From assembly GCA_003167255.1 (NCBI GenBank), contig PMTR01000095.1, forward strand, positions 1 to 64,000: a DNA stretch of 64,000 nt, given 5' to 3'. Origin of the DNA: Bryobacterales bacterium. Lineage in GTDB: Bacteria > Acidobacteriota > Terriglobia > Bryobacterales > Bryobacteraceae. This document shows, piece after piece, positions 46,085 to 57,188 of the stretch (position 1 is the stretch's first letter; each line of letters starts with the position of its first letter). The notes beneath the pieces were generated by a model that searched no databases, had not been told where the DNA came from, and saw only the letters and a list, made by a program, of their open reading frames with translations. Made by a program: the position numbers and the translations under genes.

Positions 46085-49000
46085 CTAAAAATCCAATCGC
46101 AGCGCCATCTGCATCTGCCGCGAATTGGTCGCAGTGGCGGTGATCTGGCCCGCACTGGACACCCGCTGGCCGGAAGAATTAAAGACCGCCAAGCCGCTGG
46201 GAACCTGAAAATTGGAGTGGTTGGTGACGTTGAAAGCCTCCACCCGAAGAGTCACCCGCAGCCGCTCCCCGGCCCATAGCGTCTTGTGTGTGGCCAGATC
46301 CAGGTCGAAAAGCCCCGGACCAGTGAACGTGTTGCGCCCCAGGTTCCCAAAGTACCCGGCGGGCTGTAGAGCGAATGCGTTGGGGTCAAACCAGTGCTGC
46401 GGATTGCCCAGGATTATTTTGGCATCCGGGGCAGCGATCAAATCGGGCCGCTGTCCTCCGTCGGTAGAGTCACCCAATCCGGTGCGGTCGAAACCCGTGA
46501 ACGGGTTGAAAGGGAATCCGCTTTGCAGGCGCATCAGTCCATGCAACTCCCAGGCGGCGAGGAAGCGGGCAACCGGGCCGCCGTGCAGTCTGGGCGCCGA
46601 CCATGAAGCGTTCAAGGTAGCATCGTGGCGCACGTCGAAGTCCGAACGGCCGCGATTGTCCCGGAGGCGGAACACCGGCACCAGGTCGGTGGTCAGGAAG
46701 TCGTCGAAAATCGGCGAAGACGCATCGTCGATGCTCTTGGAAAATGTGTAGCTTCCCTCCAGCCGGAATCCGTGAGCCATGCGGCGCTGCACGCTCCCTT
46801 GTAGCGAATGAGAGTATGAATCGAACTGCGTAGTGCGCATGCCGATGCGCCCAAATGCCGGATTCAGTTTTGGCGCTCCGGGCGCAAAATAAGCTGTGCC
46901 TCCGGCGGTGAAGGAAGGTACCGGCGTGTCGATGTTGCCGATATAGCCCGTCAGGTGGATGCCCCGGCTGCCGGCATATGTCACGCTTGCCATGGTATGC
47001 GGGCTAAGCTGGTGCTGCCAAGAAGCCTGGAACTGCAGCACGTAAGGCTGCTGCGGCGAGTACGTGAGCGAATCCATTGCCAGCAGCGCTGAACCGCTGC
47101 CGGCGGCATTGAGCGCGGCCACGGCATTCGGGAAAACCGGATTCGAAACGAGCGGCCGCAGATAAAATGGCGGCATGCGGACCCCGCTGATCAGCAGGTC
47201 CCGGCTGGATGGAAGATCGAAGAAGATGCCCGCGCCTGCCCGGAATACGGTCTTTCCCTTGCCGCCCACATCCCAGGCCGTCGATGCCCGCGGCGCAAAG
47301 TTGCGCTTCGAGGGGTTCTGGTACAAAGGGCCACCGACCGTTACGGTCTTGTCCTGAAGCGGATTGGGTATGGTGGCGATTTTTCCGTTCACCTCGGTGG
47401 GAACGCTAACAGCTTCATACCGTACTCCCGCCATCACCTGCCAGTTGGCGGACACCCGCCAGGTGTCCTGTACGAAGCCTGTGAATAACATGCTGCGCCA
47501 GCCGCGCACCGTGTCCGAACCCGCAGCCATGTAATCGAATTGGGACGGCTGGCCGGTAAGCAACTGGGCCACCGAGTTGAAGCGATAGAGCCCTACGGCA
47601 TCCTGGTCGGCACGCTCATTAGCCTGAATGCGGTCGAAGGATCCGCCGGCGAGGATGGTGTGCCGGCCTCGCGCGTAAGTCATCTGATGCCCCAGTTGAT
47701 AGTCGTTGTCGGCGTATTCGCGCGGCCGTTGGCGGTATTCCGTGCCGCCCACTTCGGTCAACCCCGTCACCGAGATATCCCCTATCGTCTGGCCGGGCAC
47801 TACATTCAGTCCGGCGGGAATGCGCGGCAGGTCCTGCGCGGTCTCGCCGTTCACAATCCGGCTGAAACCCGCACGAAACGTGTGGATCATGGACGGCGAC
47901 TCCTGAAACTGCAGCTCGTTGTGCGCGAACTGATACCGGGAAGAGCCGCTCAACTCCACCGTTTGCATCGGGTCCTGCGAGTTGGTGGATCCGTTATCCC
48001 ATGTGATCCGCGAGGCCAGCCGCCAGTGATCGTTTAAGATGGCGTCCAACTTGCCCGCTCCATAGTTCTCCGGGGTGACGCGCCGATCGGGTGCCAGGAA
48101 CACGGCCGTGCCATCGCTGAACTGCGGTCCGTTGGCGATGGGAAAAAGGGCCAGGAACGGCTTGACCGCGTTGGACACCGTCACCTGCGTGGTTCCCAGA
48201 TTTCCGGTTCGCCCCGCGTCGGACAGGGTGGTCGCCACGGTAGTCTGCGCCGAATCTTGGCGGATGGCTTCGTAGTTTAACAGGAAAAAGAGCCGGTTCT
48301 TTTTCAGCGGTCCGCTGAACAGACCGCCAAACTGGTTTCGCCGGAAGGGCGGAATCGGCTGGTTCTGCGGGTCGAAGAAGTTCCTGGCATCCATCGCACT
48401 GTTGCGCAGATACTCGTATGCCGAGCCGTGCCACTGGTTCGCGCCGGATTTGGACACGGCAGTCAGAATGGCCCCGGCCGCCCGCCCGTACTCCGCGCTG
48501 AACGGGCTGGTGATCAGCCGCAGCTCTTCGGTGCCCTCGATGCCCAGCAACCTTCCGCCGGCGCTGGACGGCGCCGAACCGGTAGCATCGTCCACGTAGA
48601 TTCCGTCGATGCGGAATCCGTTCTGGCTGGGCCGCAGGCCGTTTACGGACAGATGCAGCCCCCCGCCCGTTGTCATGTTCTGCTGGGACTGGGTGGTGAC
48701 CGGGCTACCCGGCTGCTGGGCCGCGAGGTCGAACATATCGCGGCCATTGAGAGGCAGGGATTCCAGCTTCTGGTTCCAGACGGTGCCGCCCCAATCGGCC
48801 GCCGACACCGCGACCAGAGGCGTTTCCGCGATCACTTGCACGGTTTCGCGCGTCTCGCCGATTGCGAGGCGCACGTTGGCGCGTACCGAGCTGCCCGCGG
48901 ATAAGAGAATGCCTCGCTGGACTTGGGTCACGAAGCCCGGTGAGGAGGCTTCCAATTCGTATTCGCCGGGCTTCATTCCGGAGGCCACGAAATAGCCCTG

Positions 49001-49921
49001 GCTGTCGGCCGGCACGGCCCTTTGCACCTGCGTGCCAATCTCCCGCAGCAGCAGCTTGGCATTCGGCACCGGCCTGCCGGCGGGATCCACAACGGTTCCT
49101 TCCACCGTTCCGGTGGTCTGGGCTTGCAGCCCCGCCGGCGCCATCGCCAGAACCAGCAACAAAGCAGTCATTGCGCCGATTCGGCTCCACGGGATCAACG
49201 CCAGCTCCAGCTTGTCGAGCAAGGTCTGAAACAAGAGGCCCAATAGGGCTGCCGCCAGAACCCCGACCAGCAGGTTGTCGATAGAAAGCGTCTGCCAGCC
49301 CATCCAGATCATGCCTCCGATCCCCGTCTCCGAGATCAACATCTCGGTGGATAGAGTCAAAACCAATCCGGCTCCCAATGCCACCCGCAAGCCGGTAAAC
49401 AGGCGCGGCAGGCTCGCCGGCAGGAATACATAGCGGACCTGCTCCCACCGGCCCGCTCCGTAGTTCCGCGCGAGTTCGACGTAGTGCCGGTCGATGCCCA
49501 GGGCCGCGTCCAAAGCGTGCAGCGCGCACACCACGAAACAGGTGGCGGTCGCGGGCATGATGAGGGCCGGCTCGCCCATGCCCAGCAGCAGCATGAACAG
49601 CGGCAGCAGGGTAACCTTCGGTATCGTCAGGCTCGCCGACAACAGCGGCTTCAAGGCGTTGCGCAACCCGCCAAACAGGCTCAGAGTCAGCCCGAAGGCG
49701 ATTCCCGAGGCGGACCCGATAAAGAACGCGGCCAGGGTTCGACCTACCGAGGCCGCAATGTGCCTTTGTAACACTCCGGCTTGCGTCAGGCGCCACGCTG
49801 CCGCCAGCAGTTTGGAAGGCGGCGGAAAGAACATCTGGTTGGTCAGGCCGGCCCAGGAAGCCGTCTGCCAGATGGTGATCAGGAGGGCCGGCGCGATCCA
49901 CGCTTTGGACCGCCGCATCAT
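46085..49921 (-). CDS. ABC permease fused in frame to a TonB-dependent outer-membrane receptor
   Basis: One open frame of 1278 codons. Residues 1-248 are a complete SsuC/TauC-type permease with about six helices and the EAA loop (HYVELARNYGAGRWEQVRYVFLPASLPRLFTGLR). Residue 251 is a Met starting a signal peptide (MTALLLVLAMAPAGLQAQ, ATG at 49171). Then come a carboxypeptidase-regulatory-like domain (about 270-350), a plug (about 370-530) and a beta-barrel ending in LRLDF. No stop separates the two. Either a signal-peptidase-cleaved polyprotein, or two proteins from two starts (GGAG lies 13 nt before 49171). The start overlaps the binding-protein gene (ATGA). Confidence 0.85.
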   Translation of the reverse strand: MMRRSKAWIAPALLITIWQTASWAGLTNQMFFPPPSKLLAAAWRLTQAGVLQRHIAASVGRTLAAFFIGSASGIAFGLTLSLFGGLRNALKPLLSASLTIPKVTLLPLFMLLLGMGEPALIMPATATCFVVCALHALDAALGIDRHYVELARNYGAGRWEQVRYVFLPASLPRLFTGLRVALGAGLVLTLSTEMLISETGIGGMIWMGWQTLSIDNLLVGVLAAALLGLLFQTLLDKLELALIPWSRIGAMTALLLVLAMAPAGLQAQTTGTVEGTVVDPAGRPVPNAKLLLREIGTQVQRAVPADSQGYFVASGMKPGEYELEASSPGFVTQVQRGILLSAGSSVRANVRLAIGETRETVQVIAETPLVAVSAADWGGTVWNQKLESLPLNGRDMFDLAAQQPGSPVTTQSQQNMTTGGGLHLSVNGLRPSQNGFRIDGIYVDDATGSAPSSAGGRLLGIEGTEELRLITSPFSAEYGRAAGAILTAVSKSGANQWHGSAYEYLRNSAMDARNFFDPQNQPIPPFRRNQFGGLFSGPLKKNRLFFLLNYEAIRQDSAQTTVATTLSDAGRTGNLGTTQVTVSNAVKPFLALFPIANGPQFSDGTAVFLAPDRRVTPENYGAGKLDAILNDHWRLASRITWDNGSTNSQDPMQTVELSGSSRYQFAHNELQFQESPSMIHTFRAGFSRIVNGETAQDLPRIPAGLNVVPGQTIGDISVTGLTEVGGTEYRQRPREYADNDYQLGHQMTYARGRHTILAGGSFDRIQANERADQDAVGLYRFNSVAQLLTGQPSQFDYMAAGSDTVRGWRSMLFTGFVQDTWRVSANWQVMAGVRYEAVSVPTEVNGKIATIPNPLQDKTVTVGGPLYQNPSKRNFAPRASTAWDVGGKGKTVFRAGAGIFFDLPSSRDLLISGVRMPPFYLRPLVSNPVFPNAVAALNAAGSGSALLAMDSLTYSPQQPYVLQFQASWQHQLSPHTMASVTYAGSRGIHLTGYIGNIDTPVPSFTAGGTAYFAPGAPKLNPAFGRIGMRTTQFDSYSHSLQGSVQRRMAHGFRLEGSYTFSKSIDDASSPIFDDFLTTDLVPVFRLRDNRGRSDFDVRHDATLNASWSAPRLHGGPVARFLAAWELHGLMRLQSGFPFNPFTGFDRTGLGDSTDGGQRPDLIAAPDAKIILGNPQHWFDPNAFALQPAGYFGNLGRNTFTGPGLFDLDLATHKTLWAGERLRVTLRVEAFNVTNHSNFQVPSGLAVFNSSGQRVSSAGQITATATNSRQMQMALRLDF

Positions 49922-50976
49922 GACTGGCCCCGGTGCGAGCGCTCCAGCCAGCGCAGATCCACCATCCCTTCGGCCTTAGCCGGCTGACTATACCCCTGCT
50001 GGTTCGCCCAGTCGATATACTTCTGCAAGTCTTCGATGCGCACGGAGCCGTCCGGGACGAGACTGGTGCGGCAGGTCTTCAGCACTAACTCGCGTTCCAG
50101 CCCGTTCTCGCGGATATATCTCTCGAAGTAATCCGGGGTGGCTCCGGCCAGGTATTCGCGGGTGCCGCGGAAATAAGCCTTCAGAAAATCCGCGCCCAGT
50201 TCCGGATCGCCGTCCAGCAGGCTCTTGGCAAACAGGATGTACGAATACTGCTGACCGGACACGAGTCGCGCCGCCGCATCGTTGCGCAGGAACTCTTGCC
50301 GCCGCGCGCCCAGGTCAATCGGGAGACCGAACCCGTTGATCATGGCATCGACGCCGCCCGACAGGAGAGCTGCCAGCGCCGCGGCTTTGTCCATATACGC
50401 CGTTTTGACTTCGCCCGCCGCCACGCCCAGGCGCCTGCGGAGCGCATCGAAAGCAAATTCGTCGATGCCCCCCCTGTTTTGCACGGCGACGTGTTTCCCG
50501 CGCCACGCCAGCGCGTCCCCATCTCCCGCCGGGAACCGGGCCGTGCGCTCGTAAAGGAAGCCAACCTCTCGACAGCCGACCACATACTCTCGCGCCGCCG
50601 CGATACGGAGCCTGGCGCCTTGCGCCAGCATGTTGAACAAGCTGGGCGCACTGCCGAGGAAGCCCACGTCAAGGGTCCCTTGAGCCAGCAGAGGCATCAC
50701 TTCGGTCGCGGAGCGCGTGACCCGGATGGCGATGTCGAATCCCGCCGAGCGAAAATAGCCCCGCTCATGGGCCAGATAGAACGGGCTCATAGCGAGGTAG
50801 GGACCCAGCGCCACCGCCAGTTTGCGCACGCCTGCCTTTCTAGCGCGGCCACAAGCCGCGGCGGCTCCCGCCGGCAACATCAGAAACCGGCGGCGGTCCA
50901 ATCCCCGCCCTAACACGCGGCTCCGGGCGGAGCCGGGCCAAGAGGGAATGCCGTCAGGGAATGGTCTCTTCGGCAT
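49918..50976 (-). CDS. SsuA/NMT1-type ABC substrate-binding protein
   Basis: 352 residues. A Tat-type lipoprotein signal, RRRFLMLPAGAAAAC, ends with a lipobox-like Cys. The NMT1/SsuA-like fold follows: LAMSPFYLAHERGYFRSAGFDI, LLAQGTLDVGFLGSAPSLFNMLAQG, WRGKHVAVQNRGGIDEFAFDALRR and ALLSGGVDAMINGF. Relatives bind sulfonates, nitrate, thiamine precursors, riboflavin or aromatic acids, so the ligand is open. It lies 4 bp from the upstream ANL gene and overlaps the permease. Confidence 0.88.
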   Translation of the reverse strand: MPKRPFPDGIPSWPGSARSRVLGRGLDRRRFLMLPAGAAAACGRARKAGVRKLAVALGPYLAMSPFYLAHERGYFRSAGFDIAIRVTRSATEVMPLLAQGTLDVGFLGSAPSLFNMLAQGARLRIAAAREYVVGCREVGFLYERTARFPAGDGDALAWRGKHVAVQNRGGIDEFAFDALRRRLGVAAGEVKTAYMDKAAALAALLSGGVDAMINGFGLPIDLGARRQEFLRNDAAARLVSGQQYSYILFAKSLLDGDPELGADFLKAYFRGTREYLAGATPDYFERYIRENGLERELVLKTCRTSLVPDGSVRIEDLQKYIDWANQQGYSQPAKAEGMVDLRWLERSHRGQS

Positions 50977-50980
50977 GTCA

Positions 50981-52576
50981 CTATCGCCTCCCCGCTTTCG
51001 CGTGCTGCCGGGCCCCCTCTCCCAGCAGATGCAGCGAAAGCACTTTGCCGGCCCTGGTTATTTCCGGTTCTTCCAGCACTACGGCCAGCGCATCACCGTG
51101 GCGCCACTCGCGCACGGTCAAAGAGCCCCCGAACAAGGCGCGCACTTCCTTCAGGAAGAACTCCCGCACGGCAGCGGCATCCTTGGCTCCGGTTCGCGGA
51201 CTCACTCGCAAGACCAGTTTGCCCAGCCCCTCGCTTTCGGCTTCCACCAGTTGATAGTCGGCCGGCGAGCCTCCGAACCGCTGCGGAAGGCCCCGCTCCA
51301 GAACGCGGAGGATGTCGCTGCCTACCAGCGTGGCCCCGTAGCCGGTCAATTTACTGAAGCTGAAGATGCCGTCGACCTGGGTCCGGTAACCCAGTCGGGA
51401 CAACACGCAGTCGCACGATGCCGGACCTACCACTCCGTGGTCGTCCATCTCCACGTTGATCAGCAGCCTGGGGTTCAGCGGCAACAGCGTGGTGAAGTGC
51501 AGCGATTGCACGGGCGCCCCGGACAACGGAGCCTCCCGTTCCACCGCAATGACGGCCACGTTATCTTCGAAGACATGGACGCAGTTGCCGCGCATCCGGC
51601 TACAGCCGTATCCAACGGTTCCCATCTCGCTGATGAAATAGTTGGGGTGCACCTCCGCGCCGCTCTGCTCGATGAGCTCGCGCTTGGCCTCGGTGAGCGC
51701 TTCTCCCCCGGTAAGGAAGATCACCCCGGCGAGCGAGACGCCCATCTCGATCGCCGCCGCGGCCACCCGCACAGTGGGGCTCACGATGCCCCAGACCACC
51801 GATTTCCGGCCGCGCGCGCTGACCTTCTCGAGGTGCCTCACCACCGGCGTAAAGTCGTTGGACGGCAGGTATTCCGGCCACGGGATGGCCGTTCCCAGTA
51901 ACTTGGCTTCCGCCACCAGGGCACGCGTCACCACCCGGTAATGGCCCGTATCGCGCATGTTGCCGCCCACCGCAAACCAGCGGCTGACGGGGAGTTCGAC
52001 GTGTTGCAACGCTCGGGCAGTGGTAAACGCGTAGGGAGCGGGAAGGATGGGAAACAATAGAATGCACTCCCGACCCGCCAGGCCAAATTCCTCCGCCAGC
52101 ACGGCCTCGTAGCAATTCCGGTATGCCCGGTATGCCGTGCTATGAGGGGTGGACGTTCCGGCGCTGCGGCTGCCCCCCGACCGCGATGTCCAATGGCCGC
52201 CGTTACCCCGTTTCAGAAAGCTGTCCCCGTTGCCGGGGATTTCCCGCCCGTGGCGCACAATCGGACGTTTGCCCTTCAACTCGGCGTGCAACAGGTACAC
52301 TCCGGAATCTCTTAACTGCCGCAGCGTTGCTTCCAGGCCTCCGCTACGCACCGAGTTCTCGAAGTCGCCGTACTGGCAGCCGGCCTGTTCGAACATGATC
52401 CGGTAGGGATGGTCCGGCGTCGCAAACACGTAGTCCCGCACCTGGGCGGCGAACCGTTCCACGCGATGTTCGATTTGATCCCGCAACCTGCCGCGGGGAT
52501 CGGCCGGCGGGGGCAGTCGCAGAATATCGAACAGCCCTCTGGCCATCCGCGTGTAGTAGACCGCCTCTTTAAGCAT
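50981..52576 (-). CDS. ANL-superfamily adenylate-forming protein (PaaK/LuxE-like), function unknown
   Basis: 531 residues. The region GHWTSRSGGSRSAGTSTP stands where ANL enzymes have their Ser/Thr/Gly phosphate loop. FLTGGEALTEAKRELIEQSGAEVHPNYFISEMGTVGYGC matches the adenylate-binding part of PaaK/LuxE-like proteins, and the C-terminal subdomain (about 420-530) follows DGIFSFSKLTGYGATLVG. It may activate a carboxylic acid as acyl-AMP, passing it to CoA or a protein. Encoded between the ABC ATPase (8-bp overlap) and binding protein, so its substrate is probably what the transporter imports. Confidence 0.75.
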   Translation of the reverse strand: MLKEAVYYTRMARGLFDILRLPPPADPRGRLRDQIEHRVERFAAQVRDYVFATPDHPYRIMFEQAGCQYGDFENSVRSGGLEATLRQLRDSGVYLLHAELKGKRPIVRHGREIPGNGDSFLKRGNGGHWTSRSGGSRSAGTSTPHSTAYRAYRNCYEAVLAEEFGLAGRECILLFPILPAPYAFTTARALQHVELPVSRWFAVGGNMRDTGHYRVVTRALVAEAKLLGTAIPWPEYLPSNDFTPVVRHLEKVSARGRKSVVWGIVSPTVRVAAAAIEMGVSLAGVIFLTGGEALTEAKRELIEQSGAEVHPNYFISEMGTVGYGCSRMRGNCVHVFEDNVAVIAVEREAPLSGAPVQSLHFTTLLPLNPRLLINVEMDDHGVVGPASCDCVLSRLGYRTQVDGIFSFSKLTGYGATLVGSDILRVLERGLPQRFGGSPADYQLVEAESEGLGKLVLRVSPRTGAKDAAAVREFFLKEVRALFGGSLTVREWRHGDALAVVLEEPEITRAGKVLSLHLLGEGARQHAKAGRR

Positions 52577-53339
52577 GCATGGCCTGCTCCTTCGCCGGCG
52601 CCAGTTGTTTGAGCACTTCCCGCTTGATGGCCACGAACTCCGGGCTAGTGAGATCCCCGGTATTGCGGGGCTGGCTCAGCGGGACCCTGAGTTGCAGTTC
52701 CATCTTGCCGCCGGAGGGCGACATCACCATCACACGATCGCTCAGCAGGATGGCTTCATCGACATCGTGCGTCACGAATATCACGGACATGGAAGTGGGC
52801 TGCCACAGCGCCAACAATTCCTGCTGTAGCTCCAGCCGCGTCTGCGCATCCAAAGCGGCGAAGGGTTCGTCCATCAGCAGCAGCGCCGGCTTGCACAGGA
52901 AGGCGCGAATCAGGGCAACGCGCTGGCGCATGCCGAGCGACAGCTCCGAGGGCCAGGCACGCTCGCGGCCCGCGAGGCCGAATTGTTTCAACAGCCGCAG
53001 CGCTTCCGGCTCCCGCTCTTCGCGCTCCACGCCTCTCATCGCCAAACCGAAAGTGGCGTTCTCCAGCACGCGCATCCAGGGAAATAGGCTGCTCTCCTGA
53101 AAGACCAGCAGCGTGTCCGAATTGGGGTCGTCGGGATGCGGAATGAGCTCGATGGTGCCGCTCGAAGGCCGCACCAACTGCGCGATGGAGCGCAGCAGCG
53201 TTGTCTTGCCGCAACCACTCGCACCGATAATGGAAACGAATTCGCCGTGGTTGGTGGCGAAGGTCACGCCGTCCAGCGCACGGGTTTCCGTTCCCTCCGA
53301 TCTAAACGTGACGCCTAGACCGTTACAGTCCGCCCTCAT
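52569..53339 (-). CDS. SsuB/TauB-type ABC transporter ATPase
   Basis: 256 residues. Walker A GASGCGKTT, Q-loop VFQESSLFPW, signature LSLGMRQRVAL (usual LSGGMRQR, so the third position is Leu), Walker B LLLMDEPFAALD and the switch His in FVTHDVDEA. It powers import with the permease domain encoded three genes downstream. First gene of the operon; the 138-bp gap to the glycosyltransferase gene should hold the promoter (AT-rich, CATATAGTTTATAAG). Confidence 0.93.
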   Translation of the reverse strand: MRADCNGLGVTFRSEGTETRALDGVTFATNHGEFVSIIGASGCGKTTLLRSIAQLVRPSSGTIELIPHPDDPNSDTLLVFQESSLFPWMRVLENATFGLAMRGVEREEREPEALRLLKQFGLAGRERAWPSELSLGMRQRVALIRAFLCKPALLLMDEPFAALDAQTRLELQQELLALWQPTSMSVIFVTHDVDEAILLSDRVMVMSPSGGKMELQLRVPLSQPRNTGDLTSPEFVAIKREVLKQLAPAKEQAMHA

Positions 53340-53477: not shown

Positions 53478-54440
53478 CTATCCGGCGCTCCGGAACCTGG
53501 TCCTCCCCCATGCCAGCGCTTTCTCAAACAGGCTTCGGGGCAATAGTGCGCAACCCACAGCCGCTGCCAGGATCATCCAGTTCCTGTCGTCGGCCAATGC
53601 CCGCCGGGGTGCCCTGGAAAAGGCGGACAGGGCGAGCTTCAGGGCGTTCGCCGAGTCTCCCTGCTCGCAGGCGAGCGCCGCGAAATAGCGGCGCATGTTG
53701 CTGTCGGCCACGGGAAGAATTTGCGCCACCGAACGGGGAGCGTAGCCGGGAACCTGCCGCAGCAGATATTCCCATTCGCGCCTCACCTCCCGCCACTCTC
53801 GAGACATCTGGCCCGTATGGCGCCGGTACAGAGTAAGATAATGCGGCACCGCGCGGCAGTTGCCGGGACGCAGTGCCGCGACACGCCAGCACAGATCCGC
53901 GTCATAGACGCGGCGATACGATTCGTTGAAGGCTCCAACCTTATCCAGGGCGTTCTTGCGAACCGCGATGGCTGAGGTATTCCCCACTACGAAGTCTTCC
54001 ACCAATTGCTCGAAAGAGATGGTTCCAACCCAAGCCCGCGATGGCAGCCCCAGGTTCAGGCCATTCTCATCGATCATGCGCGACCAGTCGAAGGTAAGGT
54101 CAATCTCGCTGTGCTGCGAGAGGCATTGCGCGTGCGATGCGAGTTTCCCGGGGAGCCACAGGTCGTCGTGATCCAGGAAGGCGATCACCGAGCCGCGGGC
54201 CCGAGCCAAGCCGGCGTTCAAGGCCGCAGGCGCGCCCCGTTGCTCCTGCCGGAAGATGCGGATACGCGGGTCCCTCAGATCGCTGACGGATTCCAGGCAG
54301 CCATCGCTCGACCCGTCATCGATCAGAATTAGCTCGAAATCCGAAAACGTCTGCGCCAGGACCGAATCGACCGCCGGCCTGAGATAGGGACCGGCGTTGT
54401 GCACGGGCACCAGCACAGAGGAGAGCACCTCAGTTGCCAT
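53478..54440 (-). CDS. Family 2 glycosyltransferase
   Basis: 320 residues. GT-A fold: SSVLVPVHNAGPYLRPAVDSVLAQTFSDFELILIDDGSSDG, the metal-binding FLDHDDLW, and acceptor-side YDADLCWRVAAL. The C-terminal 100 residues are helical and may associate with the membrane (AAAVGCALLPRSLF). It transfers a sugar from a nucleotide donor, probably in cell-surface polysaccharide synthesis. Overlaps the upstream GT2-GT39-like gene by 11 bp, so the two form an operon. Confidence 0.92.
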   Translation of the reverse strand: MATEVLSSVLVPVHNAGPYLRPAVDSVLAQTFSDFELILIDDGSSDGCLESVSDLRDPRIRIFRQEQRGAPAALNAGLARARGSVIAFLDHDDLWLPGKLASHAQCLSQHSEIDLTFDWSRMIDENGLNLGLPSRAWVGTISFEQLVEDFVVGNTSAIAVRKNALDKVGAFNESYRRVYDADLCWRVAALRPGNCRAVPHYLTLYRRHTGQMSREWREVRREWEYLLRQVPGYAPRSVAQILPVADSNMRRYFAALACEQGDSANALKLALSAFSRAPRRALADDRNWMILAAAVGCALLPRSLFEKALAWGRTRFRSAG

Positions 54441-56967
54441 CTTCAGCCGGCCTGTGTTCGGTAATCACCCTCCCGATGCTGAAGCCGAGGTCGATCCGCA
54501 GCCGATCGGGGATCCTCTGCAACGGTGTCCTGCGTTGATAAACTGACAATCCCCCGGACCTCGCACACTGCCGCCATACGGGATTCTGGGACACGGTTTC
54601 CCGCAACAGGGCAAAGTCCGGGAAAACGTGAGCCCGCTCCTGGTGAGCATCCAGAACCACGGTTTCGATTCCGAAACGGTCCAGCGTGGCTTCCACAGCG
54701 ACAGGAGTTGTTGCGAGGAGGCGGTAATGGTCGCCGGTCCACCCCGAGCGCGACAGCACCTTGGTGGCCCGGACGAACAGGCTCGACGGCCGTGGCTCCC
54801 GCAGACTGCCCATCACGATCCAGGATCCTTCTTCCCACCCGTTTGAGCCCGCAACCATCAGCCTCGCCGGATAGCGGATGACCGGCGCTATCTTCTGGTA
54901 CCCCACCGGCTTCTGCCGGTGCCACTGCCACGGAAACAGTGCCAGGAGCAATCCGGCGGCAAGCACGGTAGCAGGCACACGGAAGGCTGAGCGCAGCTCC
55001 CAGACGGCCCGCAGACAGGCCAGACTGAGCAGCAATAGCGGCGGCAGCGCCATGATCCAATGCCGCGGCTCGTTCATCGCGCCCAGGAAAAACGAACTGC
55101 CAACTATAGAGAACAGCACCGCCGCGGAAGCTATCGCCATGGGCTGCCTCTGCGGCAACGTGAGGAAGAATCCGGCCACCGCCAATGCCACGGCGCCATA
55201 CCCGGCGAGGTGGCCTACACTGCCGATGTTATGTTGGTTGCCAAGGCCGGCTCCCGCCCACTTGCTAATCGTCGCCAGCGACGGATTGAACATCAGGTAC
55301 CAGCCCAGACCCGCGGCGGCCAGCAGCACCACCGAGGCCCAAAGATAGCGTCTGCGAAGCACGCTGGCGTATCCCAAAATGAGCGGCGCCAGAAACAACG
55401 CCGGAATCAGGCATACGCCTGTGCCCTTGATCATGAGGCAGGCTAAGCACAGCGCGCCCGCGGCGAGAAACGCGGCCCTCGTCCGCTGGCGGCAAAAGCG
55501 CGCCAGCGTCCCTACCAACAGCACTCCCACCAGCAACGTCAGGATATCAGCCATCACCAGCGAAACAGAGTCTTGAAACACCGGCGAAACTACCAGCAGA
55601 CAAGCCGCCAAAAATGCCACCACCCGATGCGCCAGCTCTCGCGCTAAGTGATAGAACGCCGCCGCGGCTGTCAGGCCGATCAATCCGAGCAGCAGCAGCG
55701 CGCTCGGCCGGGAAGGCGGCACAAACAGCCACCAGATTGCCTCTATCCCGTGAAACAGCGGAGGCCAATGCCCCAGCGCCACCTTCGGGTAGTGCAGATA
55801 GTATTGCTCCGCCCAGGAAATCGGATGGTGGAGGGGCCATTGCACCAAAAAGTCGCGCAGCATCAAACCGGTCATGAAGTGGGCCGCCTCATCAGGATAC
55901 CCGTCGAACTCCGCCGTGTGGGCACCCCCGGCGAGCTGGATGCCGCCGAAAATCAGCACCGCCAACGCACCCACGGCCAGGCCGAAGCGCCGATCACGCG
56001 ACGTTTCCCACTTCCAGAGCCCTATCGCCAGGCCGGCGCCCGACGCCAGCAAGTGCACCACGTAGAGCGGAACCGAAGCCAGCGAGAACCACCATCCTCG
56101 TGCCCGCGCCAGAAACCGAAACAAGGGCCACTGCAACGCCAGCATAGCCAGCGTCGCGGCTACAGCCAACCCCCACCAGACCCGTCCAAAACGCAGACCC
56201 CAGAAGAACAGGACGGGAAGCAGGACGGCCAAAACGGTGCTCCAGCGGTCCTGCCATCGGAAGTTCAGATCGTGCGGCAACCCGCGTTCCAGCAGCATCC
56301 GTGTCCACGGCACCGCCCGGTCCAGCACATCGCTGCGCAGCATCGACCGGATAGTCCACTCCTTATGGTGGGTCACCTGAATACGCGGATCCAGTGCCAG
56401 GGTGCCGCCCGCTTCGTGCAGCCGGATTCCGATTTCGACGTCTTCCAGCATTCGCTGAGACTCGTCAAACCCCCCCAGGGCCAAGAAGCGATCCCGCCGG
56501 ATCGCGCCACAACCGGCCCAGAAGGTGGTCGCCCGGGCCGACGAGCGATGGTGCACGTGGGCATGCAACAGATTCCGAAAAACCGCGACCATCCCGCGGT
56601 TGGCCGGCTGGAAATCGTAGGACCCCATCAGAGCGTCCAGGCCCGGCTCGCCAGCGAACCGTGCGGCGATGTTCGCCAGGGTGGTATCGAGGATGGTCAC
56701 GTCGGCGTCGATGAATACGAAGATGTCGCCGGTTGCCTTCCTCGCCGACGCATTGCGCGCTGCCCCGGGACCTTGGTTCCGATCGAGACGGACGACGCTT
56801 GCGCCATACTGCCCGGCGGTTCCGGCGATACCCGGCCCGTCCGGCGAATGGTCGTCGGCAACCAGGATCTCGTAGTCGGTGAAGCTCGATCGCCGGATGC
56901 TCAGCAGACAGTTTTCCAGCAGTTCGGCGGTTCCGAATACAGGGACGATCACAGAAAGCAGCGGCAT
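54430..56967 (-). CDS. Fusion of GT2 glycosyltransferase and GT39/ArnT-like membrane glycosyltransferase
   Basis: 845 residues starting MPLLSVIVPVFGTAELLENC. Residues 1-250 are a GT2 domain (ADDHSPDG, FVFIDADVTI, EDVEIGIRLHEAGG). Two helices near 260-330 and a second membrane part with about ten helices follow; the acidic motif EFDGYPDEAAHFMTG is the DE site of lipid-sugar-dependent PMT/ArnT enzymes. A periplasmic C-terminal domain (about 690-845) ends the protein. One chain may both make a polyprenyl-phosphate sugar in the cytoplasm and transfer it outside. An upstream frame to 57090 runs into other remnants and is rejected. Confidence 0.85.
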   Translation of the reverse strand: MPLLSVIVPVFGTAELLENCLLSIRRSSFTDYEILVADDHSPDGPGIAGTAGQYGASVVRLDRNQGPGAARNASARKATGDIFVFIDADVTILDTTLANIAARFAGEPGLDALMGSYDFQPANRGMVAVFRNLLHAHVHHRSSARATTFWAGCGAIRRDRFLALGGFDESQRMLEDVEIGIRLHEAGGTLALDPRIQVTHHKEWTIRSMLRSDVLDRAVPWTRMLLERGLPHDLNFRWQDRWSTVLAVLLPVLFFWGLRFGRVWWGLAVAATLAMLALQWPLFRFLARARGWWFSLASVPLYVVHLLASGAGLAIGLWKWETSRDRRFGLAVGALAVLIFGGIQLAGGAHTAEFDGYPDEAAHFMTGLMLRDFLVQWPLHHPISWAEQYYLHYPKVALGHWPPLFHGIEAIWWLFVPPSRPSALLLLGLIGLTAAAAFYHLARELAHRVVAFLAACLLVVSPVFQDSVSLVMADILTLLVGVLLVGTLARFCRQRTRAAFLAAGALCLACLMIKGTGVCLIPALFLAPLILGYASVLRRRYLWASVVLLAAAGLGWYLMFNPSLATISKWAGAGLGNQHNIGSVGHLAGYGAVALAVAGFFLTLPQRQPMAIASAAVLFSIVGSSFFLGAMNEPRHWIMALPPLLLLSLACLRAVWELRSAFRVPATVLAAGLLLALFPWQWHRQKPVGYQKIAPVIRYPARLMVAGSNGWEEGSWIVMGSLREPRPSSLFVRATKVLSRSGWTGDHYRLLATTPVAVEATLDRFGIETVVLDAHQERAHVFPDFALLRETVSQNPVWRQCARSGGLSVYQRRTPLQRIPDRLRIDLGFSIGRVITEHRPAEDGN

Positions 56968-57188
56968 CGGCCTCGAGCGTCCCAGGCGGCAGCCCTTCGT
57001 CCCGCTTCCTGCGGTGCTGCAAGGAAGCGCTTCGCCAGCGGCTGCCGTGCAATGCGGGCAAGCGAAAAATCGATGACGTCGGGGCCGCAAAACAGGTTAT
57101 AGAGGAATGGTTCGATGCTCTGGAGCGAATGCGGCCCGGCCAGTTGGAACAGCACGACGCCTAATCCTGATCTCAAAGCATCTCCCAC
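56949..57188 (-). pseudogene. hemH: Ferrochelatase N-terminal remnant
   Basis: 79 codons from a GTG at 57188. The first 53 read GVVLFQLAGPHSLQSIEPFLYNLFCGPDVIDFSLARIARQPLA, the conserved first strand-helix of ferrochelatase (typically LLxLGGPxSxxxVxPFLYNLFxDPxII). Catalytic His and Glu residues lie further on in real HemH and are missing. After about residue 55 the sequence is unrelated and enters the glycosyltransferase start. Confidence 0.75.

Follow-up and report, generated by a model that had tools for sequence, protein, structure and literature searches.

An ABC permease and a TonB-dependent receptor in one open reading frame in a Bryobacterales bacterium: a plausible loss of a stop codon within a conserved gene cassette

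The joined frame and its gene cassette

The window, by which we mean the whole 64,000-nucleotide stretch analysed here (contig PMTR01000095.1 of the Bryobacterales assembly GCA_003167255.1), contains on its minus strand, where all its other features described below also lie, a single frame at 46085..49921 that opens with ATG and encodes 1278 aa (1296 aa from stop to stop) with no internal stop, as the first-pass annotation had held. Its N-terminal part is an NrtB/SsuC-like ABC permease (residues 1-247; 49181..49921) with a BPD_transp_1 domain at residues 73-239 (E = 2.8e-17). Its C-terminal part is a TonB-dependent, Oar-like receptor, the mature portion of which (46085..49120) displays a CarboxypepD_reg domain (residues 272-352, E = 6.8e-19), a plug with a weak Pfam match below its cut-off, and a full OMP_b-brl_4 barrel (residues 489-1271, covering profile positions 1-838 of 838, E = 6.8e-156). 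Each half appears intact: the permease can be aligned over its whole length with 18 relatives, and the receptor half is matched by its profiles over their full length. The two belong in different membranes, the permease in the inner and the TonB-type receptor in the outer one, as had been proposed. The permease had been delimited as residues 1-248; it is indeed complete, but its homology stops at Trp245, so that the join proper is codons 246-250. These five codons (S-R-I-G-A; 49172..49186) lead from the conserved Pro-Trp end of the permease to Met251 of the receptor, whose codon begins at 49171, just where an internal signal peptide had been said to start. The junction thus reads L-I-P-W-S-R-I-G-A, followed by the receptor signal peptide MTALLLVLAMAPAGLQA (residues 251-267; 49121..49171) and, past the predicted cleavage site, by Q-T-T-G.

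The permease resembles NrtB, CmpB and SsuC in sequence, in fold and in its cassette with an ATPase and an NMT1-type binding protein, but unlike them it counts a PaaK-like ligase and a TonB receptor among its neighbours. The BPD_transp_1 domain and the fold place it with the NrtB/SsuC type; since it reaches 90 bits against the NCBIfam equivalog cut-offs of 342-347 for SsuC or TauC, we do not call it SsuC. Similarly, the receptor shares its domain order and full barrel with Oar-like proteins (CarboxypepD_reg plus OMP_b-brl_4), but whereas these are normally free-standing, it is preceded in frame by the permease.

In transcription order, the neighbourhood comprises genes for a family-2 glycosyltransferase (53478..54440), which some relatives likewise have in their cassette, the ABC ATPase of the same transporter (52569..53339), a 531-aa protein (50981..52576), an NMT1/SsuA-like substrate-binding protein (49918..50976), whose last 4 nt are shared with the permease start (ATGA), and finally the fused frame. 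From the ATPase through the fused frame, each gene touches the next or overlaps it by a few bases. The protein of 531 aa is conserved in the cassette, with no Pfam match at E<=1 and none among PDB sequences; its structural model (pLDDT 76) suggests, with moderate confidence, the fold of a PaaK-type adenylate-forming ligase. The same gene set recurs in relatives in the same or shuffled order, and its core of ATPase, PaaK-like ligase, binding protein, permease and receptor is conserved in the Acidobacteriota (Bryobacteraceae). Given that the permease and receptor adjoin in this conserved set, the joined frame is not a chance juxtaposition. The source genome (7.35 Mb) has about 100 matches to TonB-type receptors, and among the matches listed only the receptor of the window is in frame with a permease.

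Two further observations concern this neighbourhood. Another genome (G031) has one additional copy of the PaaK-like ligase close to its cassette (L096:1245-2680, minus strand), which aligns in three frames and looks frame-broken. In the window itself, an 886-aa protein (54430-57090) combines a GT2 glycosyltransferase with a PMT_2 membrane domain; we considered it as a second stop loss and rejected it, as it is an established fusion common to at least seven family members.

Permease ends in relatives

Homologous permeases were sought in all 237 genomes of the family and all 257 of the order at E <= 1e-40, and in a phylum sample of 396 genomes at E <= 1e-35. A scan of contigs with the single permease matched no relatives, while an alignment of six closer permeases recovered 17 loci. 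The family and order searches yielded 17 other orthologous permeases, from 15 genomes, and the phylum sample added six more, every one with a stop. In none of the 23 homologues is the permease joined in frame to a receptor; all 23 instead terminate at most about a dozen codons past the terminal Pro-Trp, which is replaced by Arg-Trp in one distant homologue. The closest of them is only 46% identical, and the permease was not found in the same-genus genome G001.

A separate receptor gene lies directly downstream of the permease in 10 loci (L035, L036, L037, L038, L039, L040, L043, L044, L063 and L066), its start lying between 16 bases ahead of the permease stop codon and 9 bases beyond it. The receptor is out of the permease frame in eight of these; in L037 and L066 it is in frame with a stop between, the junctions reading PWRD[TAA]ATG and PWTH[TGA]CGCATTATG, respectively, the latter with Arg-Ile-Met after the TGA. 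With the receptor already in the permease frame, one lost stop at either locus would give a fused frame of the kind seen in the window.

Two long frames were checked and rejected as permease-receptor fusions. The 533-aa frame of L062 has a stop after the permease and a spurious upstream opening. In the 592-aa frame of L041 (G128:C138:966-4688; also L092) a stop likewise follows the permease, and the frame in fact unites the cassette glycosyltransferase with the permease. It is comparable to the frame in the window in that neighbouring genes of the same cassette are joined, in a different species of the family; it differs in involving another junction and a cytosolic enzyme plus a permease, for which a signal peptide is not needed. 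It seems that a cassette junction has here lost its stop a second time, independently.

The first-pass annotation had raised the idea of a polyprotein supplying equal amounts of the two transport parts, and had named beforehand two separate genes with an intervening stop in all relatives as a result that would refute its reading. As an evolved device, such a polyprotein is not supported, since every relative found has a stop at this place and two separate genes. We consider it quite improbable that the frame is a polyprotein in use, with one product cut by signal peptidase into the permease and receptor of the same uptake route at a fixed 1:1 ratio.

Origin of the joined frame

Between Trp245 and Met251, a single substitution can create a stop (TGA) only at codon 247 (CGA; 49181..49183), and relatives have their stop at or adjoining the same place. 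The permease of L041 ends in PWS[TGA], which is the very state expected of the window if codon 247 were TGA. Together with the PWTH[TGA] end of L066, this suggests that a single TGA to CGA transition would explain the fusion. We infer the ancestral base only from homologues no more than 46% identical, there being no closer relative with the permease. On balance, we consider it probable that the permease stop codon was lost in this lineage, joining two normally separate adjacent genes, with both proteins probably still being made. Under this proposal, loss of the stop in a tightly packed operon would have placed the neighbouring receptor gene in one frame with the permease; the transition at codon 247 is the likeliest single event, and alternatively an ATGA overlap would have been broken by a +1 indel within codons 246-250.

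The junction, however, rests on the consensus of one genome, and the fusion could reflect an error of assembly or consensus, or a mixture of strains, the real genome having two ordinary genes divided by a stop, either through one differing base or through the absence of one base, which would yield an ATGA overlap. That the fusion occurs in a single sequence and the stop in all 23 homologous permeases is in keeping with such an error, as are the sufficiency of one base, the ATGA motif at 49171, which is just out of the permease frame, and the division of the source genome into 200 contigs. Nevertheless, the assembly is 98.85% complete and 0.37% contaminated, and nearly all listed receptor matches of the genome lack internal stops, from which the error rate looks low; we accordingly regard an error as unlikely, if far from negligible. 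There is also a slight chance that stop loss harms the transporter and that the cassette is in early decay, on its way out: the permease is patchily distributed (15 of the 237 family genomes, including the source genome) and missing from G001 of the same genus, but every domain is intact and the operon carries no other lesions. Stop loss therefore remains our preferred origin for the frame, most simply as a recent, single event in one genome and not as an evolved polyprotein system.

Topology, processing and expression

The model of the permease (pLDDT 92) matches the fold of NrtB and CmpB, and both hydropathy and the model indicate six membrane segments preceded by a positive N-terminus. Taken together, these features predict a cytoplasmic C-terminus, so that a signal peptide placed there would be rightly oriented to begin translocation of the receptor. 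The earlier contention that a stable fusion is topologically impossible is hence too strong, the uncut product alone being problematic. As to processing, all 10 separate receptors of the relatives have Gln-Thr at their mature start, preceded by Ala in eight, and cleavage would accordingly be expected at Ala267-Gln268.

We therefore propose, from these predictions, that one precursor would leave the ribosome and that the permease would insert with its C-terminus remaining cytoplasmic. The receptor signal peptide would then serve as the seventh segment, oriented N-in, with signal peptidase I cutting at Ala267-Gln268; the permease would keep a short additional tail, and the receptor would be released toward the outer membrane. 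Internal starts at 49171 or 49198 may supply some receptor as a second source. Cleavage and internal initiation are the options that the first-pass annotation had itself foreseen, the latter from 49171. This start alone gives an unusual signal peptide with no Lys or Arg before the hydrophobic core, in contrast to all 17 readable receptors of the source genome (of 20 stretches compared, starts were readable in 17). The fused context would supply Arg247, as would a TTG start at 49198 (codon 242; 49196..49198), which would yield MIPWSRIGAM.... As Met251 alone lacks this residue, we favour the cut precursor, to which internal starts may add further receptor.

Alternatively, the frames may be truly joined with the receptor made mainly from TTG 49198 or ATG 49171, the read-through product being rare or degraded. 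The TTG is preceded at 6 nt by a GGAG (duplex -7.1 kcal/mol) and places an Arg in the resulting signal peptide; for the ATG, a GGAG lies 13 nt upstream, at a distance similar to that in L039 and L063. Against this, initiation at the ATG meets the above-noted want of a basic residue, the GGAG before the TTG encodes a conserved Leu-Glu and may be a coincidence, and the missing stop rules out termination-reinitiation, and translating ribosomes cover the region. We hence view predominant internal initiation as clearly unlikely, and continue to favour cleavage of the precursor. We infer its membrane orientation and cleavage, as well as the retained function of the products; a permease tailed by a cut or uncut signal peptide might work less well.

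A precedent for such an arrangement is the cytochrome b/c1 precursor FbcH of Bradyrhizobium, in which a multi-helix inner-membrane protein continues in frame into an internal signal peptide with another protein behind it, signal peptidase cutting between the two; both products are subunits of a single inner-membrane complex, and FbcH is conserved across its group. The frame in the window is built likewise, a membrane protein leading into an internal signal peptide and from there into another protein, and the first protein, in its predicted orientation, also ends on the cytoplasmic side. Unlike FbcH, its second product is destined for the outer membrane and the fusion occurs in one genome only, with none of the 23 homologues fused to a receptor; given this want of conservation, we do not class it as an evolved polyprotein system. 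A literature search found no permease-receptor fusion and no bacterial inner/outer-membrane polyprotein.

Thus, the parts are ordinary and the join is a single-genome event, which looks like a one-off accident that is probably tolerated via cutting of the joined protein. The conserved cassette, for its part, associates one specific ABC importer with a TonB-type receptor, and this connection could guide the search for the substrate. If real, the fusion would be a natural test of whether stop loss between genes for inner- and outer-membrane proteins is tolerable thanks to the cleavable signal peptide of the second gene.
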